Part shown: positions 6,658 to 49,896 of the stretch, piece by piece
Layout: the number at the start of each line of letters is the position of its first letter
Numbering within the stretch: position 1 is the first letter of the stretch
Assembly: GCA_030431755.1 (NCBI GenBank)
Contig: JAUIIK010000014.1
Span: forward strand, 1 to 58,062
Reading direction: 5' to 3'
Source of the DNA: Chloroflexia bacterium
Lineage (GTDB): Bacteria; Chloroflexota; Chloroflexia; Thermomicrobiales; CFX8
DNA: 58,062 bases
Position numbers and translations under genes: made by a program
The notes under the pieces: model-generated
What the model was told of the DNA's origin: nothing
The model's database searches: none
Seen by the model: only the letters and a program-made list of their open reading frames with translations

Positions 6658-6732
6658 GTAGGGCCGGGGCTCGTCCCCGGCCGCGTTTGGATAGAGTCTC
6701 GTTGACCGGCCGGGGACGAGCCCCGGCCCTAC
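6658..6732. repeat. Inverted pair of REP palindromes (class 1, GTAG head)
   Basis: Two 25-bp units face each other across a 25-bp spacer: 6658-6682 starts GTAG followed by the hairpin GGCCGGGG-ctcgt-CCCCGGCC, and 6708-6732 is its inverted copy ending CTAC. The pair lies between the convergent ends of purK and the 6786-7067 gene. The head GTAG, the stem-loop and the CTCGT loop are the same as in the REP units that flank the RAYT gene at 26.4-27.0 kb, so this is a distant copy of the same family. Confidence 0.85.
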
Positions 6733-21471: not shown

Positions 21472-21500
21472 GTAGGGGTGGAGATGAACTCCACCCCTAC
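21472..21500. repeat. Class 2 REP palindrome, complete copy
   Basis: A 29-bp perfect palindrome apart from a 5-nt centre: GTAGGGGTGGAG-atgaa-CTCCACCCCTAC. It lies between two convergent genes (stops at 21415 and 21552). The head GTAG and hairpin layout are the same as in class 1 units near the RAYT gene, but the stem sequence differs. Confidence 0.75.
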
Positions 21501-26322: not shown

Positions 26323-26347
26323 GTAGGGATGTGGCTCGTCCCCATCC
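26323..26347. repeat. Class 1 REP unit (outer, downstream side of RAYT)
   Basis: GTAG followed by GGATGTGG-ctcgt-CCCCATCC. One stem mismatch (T in GGATGTGG). With the inverted unit at 26391-26415 it forms a REP pair downstream of the RAYT gene. Confidence 0.85.
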
Positions 26348-26390
26348 GCCTCTCGGTCCCGAAGCATTCGTCGGTAGGAGCCAAAAACCA

Positions 26391-26415
26391 GGATGGGGAC
26401 GAGCCCCATCCCTAC
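26391..26415. repeat. Class 1 REP unit overlapping the RAYT stop codon
   Basis: Inverted orientation: GGATGGGG-acgag-CCCCATCC then CTAC. On the minus strand this reads GTAG-GGATGGGGctcgtCCCC..., and the TAG within GTAG is the stop codon of the RAYT gene (26412-26414). The stem is perfect, 8 bp. Confidence 0.87.
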
Positions 26416-26984
26416 GGGGTTGAGCGGGAGTTGTCACCGTGGGCGGACTGCGATCTCTGATCGAGAATCTGCTGCCAGGCTTGGTACTCGATGTCTTCAA
26501 GCCACCGTGGCGGATTGTCATCGATGTAAGCGCGGACACGATCAAGATCGCGATCATCACGGATGACATGGTCATAGAATGACTGCTGCCAGAGATGCCG
26601 CTCGAAACGCGGCCAGCGATCTCCTCGCACACCTGCAGCATAGGTGCGTGTCGTCAAAGACTTGAATGCGCCGATCACGGCGCTCAACGATTCCGTGCCG
26701 GTCGACTCTGCTGTGTTCAAGCCCACGATTGCATGCAGGTGGTTGGGCATCAGTACAAAGGCATCAAACTCGACATGCGGGAATCGGGTGGGCAGGCTTC
26801 GCCAATACCCCAAGACCATGTGACCTGCGTCGTTGAGACGGAGGCTAGCGTCAACAACGCTTCCGAATCTTGGCATCCTGTCAGCAACACAGATGGTTAC
26901 AAAATAGGAGCCCGGCTGTGCGTAGTCGAACTTCGGAAGGCGACGTAGTTTCCGTTGTCTCCATTCACGCCTCACACCTATCAC
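26412..26984 (-). CDS. REP-associated tyrosine transposase (RAYT)
   Basis: A 190-aa Y1/HUH single-strand transposase. The opening WRQRKLRRLPKFDYAQPGSY then FVTICVADR is typical of this family; the HUH motif is HLH in FDAFVLMPNHLHAIVGL; GAFKSLTTR follows; the catalytic Tyr is in LWQQSFYDHVIRDDRDLDR, and the C-terminus has RAYIDDNPPRWLED. RAYTs act on REP hairpins with a 5' GTAG-type tetranucleotide. Here the gene is bracketed by REP pairs with exactly this head: 26323-26415 and 27015-27089. GTG start at 26984. The stop codon is supplied by a REP. It looks intact. Confidence 0.93.
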   Translation of the reverse strand: MIGVRREWRQRKLRRLPKFDYAQPGSYFVTICVADRMPRFGSVVDASLRLNDAGHMVLGYWRSLPTRFPHVEFDAFVLMPNHLHAIVGLNTAESTGTESLSAVIGAFKSLTTRTYAAGVRGDRWPRFERHLWQQSFYDHVIRDDRDLDRVRAYIDDNPPRWLEDIEYQAWQQILDQRSQSAHGDNSRSTP

Positions 26985-27014
26985 CCCACACCGAAATCAA
27001 GCCCTAAACACCGC

Positions 27015-27089
27015 GTAGGGATGGGGCTCGTCCCCATCCGCTTGTTGATCGGCATCGTTTGCAGCATGGGGACGAGCCCCCGTCCCTAC
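27015..27089. repeat. Inverted pair of class 1 REP units upstream of RAYT
   Basis: 27015-27039 reads GTAG then GGATGGGG-ctcgt-CCCCATCC (perfect stem); 27066-27089 is its inverted, slightly degenerate partner ending CCCTAC. The pair is 31 bp upstream of the RAYT start codon and has the same 75-bp span as the pair at 6658-6732. Confidence 0.87.
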
Positions 27090-27107
27090 GAGTGGGCGAC
27101 CGTCAGG

Positions 27108-32042: not shown

Positions 32043-32394
32043 CGCGTCGTCGGCGTCAATGTTCATGCCCGCCGATCCCGCCTTGCTTGCCAACCTGTCA
32101 TTTGCCAACTATACTGCGTACGTACGCATGCAATCGGCCATGCGTTGGACGCGAACACCACGTCGCGCGCCGTGCAATTCAACCCCGCGTCATGTAGAAT
32201 TAGAACATCTGTTCGACATAGAGATGAGGCTGGCGAGCGCGATGAGTAAGCGGGCTACGGACATCCGACGACCGTGTGAACGGCGACGGTCGAGCCACCT
32301 GGTTTCGACGGACCGGGCGCAGGAGCGCTGGACGTCGCAGCCGGCGCTGCGCTAATTCAACGAGCTTGCCGCCTGCCGGAAGGAGAGAGAAGCA
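32043..32394. other. 352-bp leader region of the 76-aa gene
   Basis: The region holds the SOS promoter core at 32195-32214 and then about 180 bp of leader before ATG 32395. The frame after the LexA box (AGATGAGGCTGGCGAGCGCG...) is short and without a homologue. The long leader is unusual for so small a gene. Confidence 0.5.
32195..32214 (+). promoter_or_regulatory. SOS promoter core: -10 TAGAAT overlapping a LexA-type box
   Basis: TAGAAT (32195-32200) is followed by GAACATCTGTTC (32203-32214). Except for one base in the -10 the block TGTAxAATTAGAACATCTGT is identical to the one at 7163-7182. Repression by LexA and induction by DNA damage are expected for the small gene downstream. Confidence 0.72.
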
Positions 32395-32625
32395 ATGACG
32401 ACATCAGCGGCGATGACGCAACAGTCACTGACGACGGCCGATCTCACAGAATCCGGGTTCGCCGTCGAACAGGTCGACCGGCTGGTCGCGTTGCGGGCCG
32501 ACCACAGCCCTTTCCGTGAGCAGTTCAGCGAGCGCGAGTACCGGCGGCTCAACTTCGTCCGTTGGCGGATTGACCACGGGCTGCTGCTTGCTGGCCCTGT
32601 CCGGGACAAGCGCGACCGCCGGTAG
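32395..32625 (+). CDS. Small orphan protein behind an SOS promoter
   Basis: A 76-aa basic-tailed protein. The core is TADLTESGFAVEQVDRLVAL, SPFREQFSEREYRRL and NFVRWRIDHGLLL, alignable with the 69-aa product at 23634 (GFxxEQVxxLxxL, SxFxEQF, [FV]xxWR). The C-terminus (GPVRDKRDRR) is Arg/Lys-rich, unlike the paralogue. ATG 32395 has AAGGAGAG upstream. The family is not known to me; mostly helical, no TM. The LexA box 180 bp upstream suggests a role in the damage response or a small regulator. Confidence 0.72.
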   Translation: MTTSAAMTQQSLTTADLTESGFAVEQVDRLVALRADHSPFREQFSEREYRRLNFVRWRIDHGLLLAGPVRDKRDRR

Positions 32626-49871: not shown

Positions 49872-49896
49872 GTAGGGGTGGAGTTTATCTCCACCC
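49872..49896. repeat. Class 2 REP-like hairpin
   Basis: GTAG then GGGTGGAG-tttat-CTCCACCC; perfect 8-bp stem after the GTAG head. Same family as 21472-21500. Confidence 0.72.

Follow-up and report, generated by a model that had tools for sequence, protein, structure and literature searches.

The DNA analysed here (the window) is a stretch of 58,062 nucleotides from a Chloroflexota genome assembly of 5.15 Mb in 272 contigs that is 97% complete. At positions 26323 to 27089 it contains a gene for a small HUH/Y1 protein with GTAG-headed palindromes on both sides, which raises the question of whether gene and palindromes together form a REPtron and whether the enzyme, a putative REP-associated transposase (RAYT), serves to move such palindromes around the genome. 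We favor, with a probability of roughly 0.85, the reading that the block is a REPtron in which a group 4 RAYT is flanked on both sides by its cognate REPs and acts in trans to move paired REPs (REPINs). The features of the window that bear on this are collected in Table 1; genome positions and counts given below are from pattern searches and sampled stretches.

Table 1. RAYT gene and REP units located in the window
Feature	Position	Strand	Basis
RAYT1 (TnpAREP) gene, 190 aa, HUH/Y1 transposase	26412..26984	-	ORF list, Pfam/NCBIfam, AlphaFold model
REP unit A1, outer, one stem mismatch	26323..26347	+	pattern search
REP unit A2, inner, perfect	26391..26415	-	pattern search
REP unit A3, inner, perfect	27015..27039	+	pattern search, direct reading
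REP unit A4, outer, degenerate	27064..27089	-	direct reading of sequence, pair folding
REPIN of family A with stem variant GGCCGGGG/CCCCGGCC and a 50-nt distance between unit starts	6658..6732		pattern search, folding
Family C double-foot unit GTAGGGGTGGAG-ATGAA-CTCCACCCCTAC	21472..21500		pattern search, folding
Family C single unit, loop TTTAT	49872..49896	+	pattern search

The sequence-only reading had placed a RAYT between GTAG palindromes on both sides, and this was borne out, the RAYT1 ORF lying between two inverted REP pairs. The two inner units, A2 and A3, are identical (GTAG, GGATGGGG, CTCGT, CCCCATCC), and the heads of both point toward the gene. Unit A3 is situated 30 nt upstream of the RAYT1 start codon, and at the opposite end the stop codon TAG (26412-26414) falls within the GTAG head of A2 (26412-26415). 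The further claim that all units consist of GTAG, an 8-bp stem, and a CTCGT loop held strictly for A2 and A3 and only approximately for A1 and for A4, which by eye reads GTAGGGACGGGGGCTCGTCCCCATGC, with an extra G and one mismatch. When folded as single-stranded DNA, a perfect unit gave -8.9 kcal/mol (z = -4.6), and both pairs folded more stably than their shuffles (z = -7.9 for 26323-26415 and z = -7.1 for 27015-27090). The designation of the block as a REPtron, in the sense of a RAYT gene with flanking GTAG REPs, is supported.

RAYT1 passed the cut-off of Pfam Y1_Tnp (28.7 bits; cut-off, 23). With the NCBIfam model REP_Tyr_transpos it scored 72.5 bits (E = 3.2e-20), under the curated cut-off of 80. 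This cut-off serves annotation and is not a biological trait that defines the group, and other RAYTs of the class straddle it; the shortfall is therefore read as a limit of the model and not as an exclusion. The protein carries the motifs NHLH (residues 81 to 84), WQ (132 and 133), and YIDDNP (153 to 158). Across 29 aligned RAYTs, H82, H84, W132, R142, R151, and Y153 were among the invariant residues, and Q133 and N157 were nearly invariant. Y153 aligned with Tyr115 of YIYINP, the catalytic residue of the Escherichia coli RAYT, and the WQ..F(Y/W) segment aligned with the GTAG-contact region of that enzyme, the region of the WQ segment being known to touch GTAG there (PMC6006769). The catalytic tyrosine had initially been assigned to QSFYDH; this assignment must be given up, since QSFYDH is the WQ segment and, by alignment, it is Tyr153 of YIDDNP that is catalytic. 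A fold search with the AlphaFold model of RAYT1 (pLDDT 89) matched transposases of the IS200 type as well as 4er8, the E. coli RAYT in complex with REP, which is the best solved RAYT match (E = 1.5e-6; rmsd, 2.8; 22% identity), and a phmmer search of RAYT1 against solved structures gave no match. As is characteristic of the RAYT class, motifs, alignment, and fold match reveal a Y1 fold with the HUH motif and the catalytic Y---NP, and the four flanking units come from a family that is repeated in the genome.

A Y1 transposase with hairpins on either side is also what an ordinary IS200/IS605-type insertion sequence, moving as a unit and having REP-like ends, would look like. Indeed, the G+C content of the RAYT1 gene (56%, against 64% for the window, and within the lowest 0.2% of positions) suggests a foreign origin, and because of this low G+C content the gene may have been acquired horizontally. 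Such an insertion sequence is, however, very improbable here: the genome holds only two RAYT genes, which at 56% identity are not copies of one another, next to about 197 solo units. Moreover, the NCBIfam IS200 model gave RAYT1 a score of 20.9 against a cut-off of 55, REP_Tyr_transpos performing far better, and YIDDNP corresponds to the class 2 motif (Y---NP) and not to the Y[IV]ENQ of IS200 transposases.

The units around RAYT1 belong to what we term family A, defined by the pattern GTAGGG NN GGGG CTYGT CCCC NN CC with up to 2 mismatches. The case for a repeat family would have collapsed if only the copies at the locus existed; in fact, about 197 units were found in the genome, compared to 0 for a reversed control pattern. 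Since the window likewise contained 5 GTAG/CTCGT unit matches versus 0 in 100 shuffles, chance is excluded as the origin of the palindromes. Family A units occur mainly in inverted +/- pairs with GTAG outward and starts 48 to 50 nt apart, a spacing seen in 47 of the sampled +/- pairs, and in the sampled stretches the spacers and flanks vary from pair to pair. One REP pair of this genome (L094; contig 55, 11249-11633) has a spacing of 360 nt where about 49 is usual, 335 nt of other sequence separating its units. The two free stem positions were complementary in 59 of 62 sampled units, whereas shuffling the partners gave 23 on average and at most 35; they occur in five perfectly paired combinations, and the GATG stem type is represented by 30 identical units. 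In families A and C, the head is preceded by C at -1 in 84 to 97% of units and by T at -2 in 50 to 59%; with little conservation farther out, the edge of the element is placed at -1/-2.

The second RAYT gene (RAYT2; contig 260, L044) encodes 198 aa and is about 56% identical to RAYT1. It is accompanied by family B (stem GGGYGAAC, loop CTCGT), 11 of whose 17 genome units lie around RAYT2, giving a cognate arrangement in which RAYT1 goes with family A and RAYT2 with family B. The two families have the GTAG head and the CTCGT loop in common and differ in their stems. The end of the RAYT2 gene is also a REP head, and the gene holds one family B unit in frame. Family C (stem GGGTGGAG, loop TTCAT) comprises 88 genome units, and the 97%-complete assembly, when searched at the protein level and with Pfam and NCBIfam, yielded RAYT1 and RAYT2 and no third RAYT for this family. 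All three double-foot palindromes detected belong to family C (window positions 21472-21500; contig 123, 1857-1885; contig 244, 2150-2178), and each of these collapsed palindromes has GTAG at both ends. Some units combine a family C stem with the loop of families A and B. A hybrid C/B REP pair in this genome (L136; contig 104, about 32272-32426) lies in frame in a long ORF that by eye resembles the glutamate synthase large subunit, and the reading frame stays open.

With strong hairpins close to gene 3' ends, the palindromes might be taken for intrinsic terminators or other structured RNA signals that have nothing to do with a transposase. We give this explanation next to no weight, since it would not account for the constancy of the CTCGT loop and of an unpaired GTAG head, for inverted pairs at constant spacing, or for unlike families around unlike RAYTs, and the window units have no T-run following them. 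A constant head and loop beside stems that drift but remain paired fit recognition of head plus loop by the RAYT, as judged from sequence conservation. It is conceivable, if doubtful, that the recognition code in this lineage consists of the GTAG head and the CTCGT loop with the stem free to drift, so that families A and B could be used by both RAYTs, and that family C, with its TTCAT loop, is an orphan with a changed loop, its enzyme having been lost or its movement being due to mixed pairing. Cross-use of the families is hinted at by the hybrid C/B pair in the glutamate-synthase-like gene.

RAYT homologues were present in 79 of 158 genomes of the class and, with RAYT2 as the query, in 101 of 400 genomes of the phylum. 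Among named genomes, a search for a close RAYT yielded only a distant match, from Dehalococcoidia (35%). None of the other 157 genomes of the class that were searched contained the exact family A pattern, while a looser GTAGGG/CTCGT pattern with other stems was present in several of them. One class genome (G071; 6.8 Mb, 100% complete) contained 49 GTAG/CTCGT-loop units and no RAYT of the RAYT1/RAYT2 clade; two weak matches that are not RAYT-like were considered as its RAYT and rejected, because neither offered a frame with both motifs or an adjoining REP. The occurrence of the same palindromes in genomes lacking such a RAYT had been named as evidence against the sequence-only reading. In the case of exact family A this did not occur, but units of the same architecture do exist in RAYT-less G071. 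This genome indicates that repeats of this kind can persist after a RAYT of the clade is gone, or can come into being in its absence.

These findings bear on the possibility that RAYT1 no longer mobilizes anything, the REPs being frozen relics kept for transcription termination or protection of mRNA 3' ends and the RAYT being kept for other processing of single-stranded DNA. The 55 classifiable sampled REP clusters were distributed, according to approximate gene calls by codon usage, over convergent (31), unidirectional (20), and divergent (2) gene gaps and the inside of genes (2), compared to 9 convergent, 30 unidirectional, and 9 divergent gene gaps in the window. A location of REPINs mostly at gene 3' ends, and of over half of them between convergent genes, is what relics with such functions would show, and the decay of the outer units at RAYT1 points the same way. 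Moreover, the 88 family C units without a detectable RAYT and the 49 units of G071 without one speak for relics and weaken the REPtron reading. On the other hand, the 30 identical units of the GATG stem type and the pairs with identical ends but unlike spacers and flanks suggest fairly recent spread, and the RAYT1 ORF and catalytic residues are intact. We therefore regard the relic explanation as unlikely, though it retains some weight. The proposal that this particular block is the active source of the family was not borne out: no excision, insertion, or empty site was seen, decay has affected the outer units, and family A is dispersed over many contigs with no clustering beside RAYT1.

A survey of the class covered 77 distinct intact RAYT genes, matching RAYT1 at an E value of 1e-8 or better and including several genes from one genome, so that counts do not represent independent events. 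GTAG palindromes were found in the linker between HUH and WQ in 26 of the 77 (46 units; 3.0 per kb), whereas the N-terminal part of these genes held 0 units and the C-terminal part 3. REPs within a linker resembled REPs outside the same gene in 7.3 of 8 stem bases, as opposed to 4.9 for other loci (14 loci), and the linker REP of these relatives is best read as a local insertion tolerated at a surface loop. In three RAYTs of other class genomes (L142, L141, and L254), the linker carries long in-frame tandem repeats (GAKNV, VMDTD, and TNGV) that adjoin the embedded REP. The stop codon was supplied by a REP head in 11 of the 77 genes, a count that allowed a 6-bp stem with one mismatch and may include one or two chance cases. 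Neither peculiarity is put forward as new: REPs inside RAYT genes have been described for subclass 2.4 (Quentin et al. 2018), making our survey a replication, and GTAG ends supplying TAG stops were reported by Di Nocera et al. (2013).

In the preferred REPtron reading, binding, cleavage, and movement of REPs by RAYT1 would proceed as in related systems, the details of recognition being drawn from group 2 and 3 enzymes and not from group 4. At replication forks, where REP hairpins become exposed in single-stranded form, a RAYT dimer would bind them; it would recognize the GTAG foot together with the loop and need the stem chiefly to be paired. Tyr153 would then cut near the GTAG-hairpin, and REPINs would be moved in trans into intergenic gaps, mostly downstream of gene ends.

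RAYT1 appears to fit RAYT group 4, or TnpAREP subclass 2.4, as placed by motifs and shared peculiarities and not by a tree. That subclass (Bertels group 4) is described as having a median length of 194 aa and the motifs NH[IFV]H, WQ, and YIxNNP, as going with long REPs and double-foot REPs, as harboring in-frame REPs between HuH and Y, and as occurring in various phyla (Quentin et al. 2018, PMC6006769). The system described here agrees with it in the lengths of RAYT1 (190 aa) and RAYT2 (198 aa), in NHxH, WQ, and YIxxNP, in flanking long GTAG REPs and a variable HUH-to-WQ linker, in REPs in frame inside the RAYT gene (RAYT2 and relatives), and in double-foot REPs (family C). It differs in that RAYT1 has L for I/F/V in the HUH motif and D for the first N of YIxNNP, and in that its families have a 5-nt loop and its host group was not highlighted for the subclass. 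Moreover, the RAYT1 linker is short and holds no REP, although the published in-frame REP feature is not universal either.

The locus leaves the general picture of RAYTs and REPs unchanged, and the arrangement that it clearly exemplifies is one familiar in many bacteria. Its value is as a clean case outside Proteobacteria, with two sister RAYTs, cognate REPs of common head and loop but unlike stems, and an orphan family C. RAYT1 and RAYT2 with families A, B, and C thus provide a natural panel of substrates for asking which part of the REP a group 4 RAYT reads, a matter that the assays consulted here address for groups 2 and 3 only; for a group 3 TnpAREP, both GTAG and the sequence of the loop are needed and the stem has to be paired (2021 NAR study, PMC8266576).

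The remark that a Chloroflexota example with a GTAG head is less familiar was overstated, in view of the multi-phylum subclass 2.4 (PMC6006769) and of published GTAG REPs from Chloroflexi, namely GTAG-23 of Thermomicrobium roseum (Di Nocera et al. 2013, PMC3733652). GTAG REPs were reported there to have stem subfamilies with alternative complementary bases, to form dimers, and often to supply TAG stops with their ends. Our families resemble them, GTAG-23 included, in the GTAG foot, 8-bp stem, alternative complementary pairs, and GTAG-outside dimers, as well as in their intergenic location near gene 3' ends, TAG-stop heads, units inside genes, and occurrence in Chloroflexi. As far as a comparison by description and not by consensus allows, GTAG-23 is clustered at few loci, whereas family A is dispersed. 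REPINs were defined, and palindromes arising by deletion within a REPIN mentioned, by Bertels and Rainey (2011, PMC3116915). Ours resemble the REPINs of Pseudomonas fluorescens SBW25 in that inverted doublets keep a fixed distance, each RAYT has one family, and both singlets and collapsed palindromes occur, but the RAYT is of another group and the spacing of units is shorter here. The E. coli RAYT (4er8) is alike in its HUH/Y1 fold and GTAG REP hairpins; unlike the system described here, it is a group 2 enzyme with a C-terminal extension, and its REPs are bulged. Together, the features of the locus agree with Quentin et al. (2018), Di Nocera et al. (2013), Bertels and Rainey (2011), and the 2021 NAR study.
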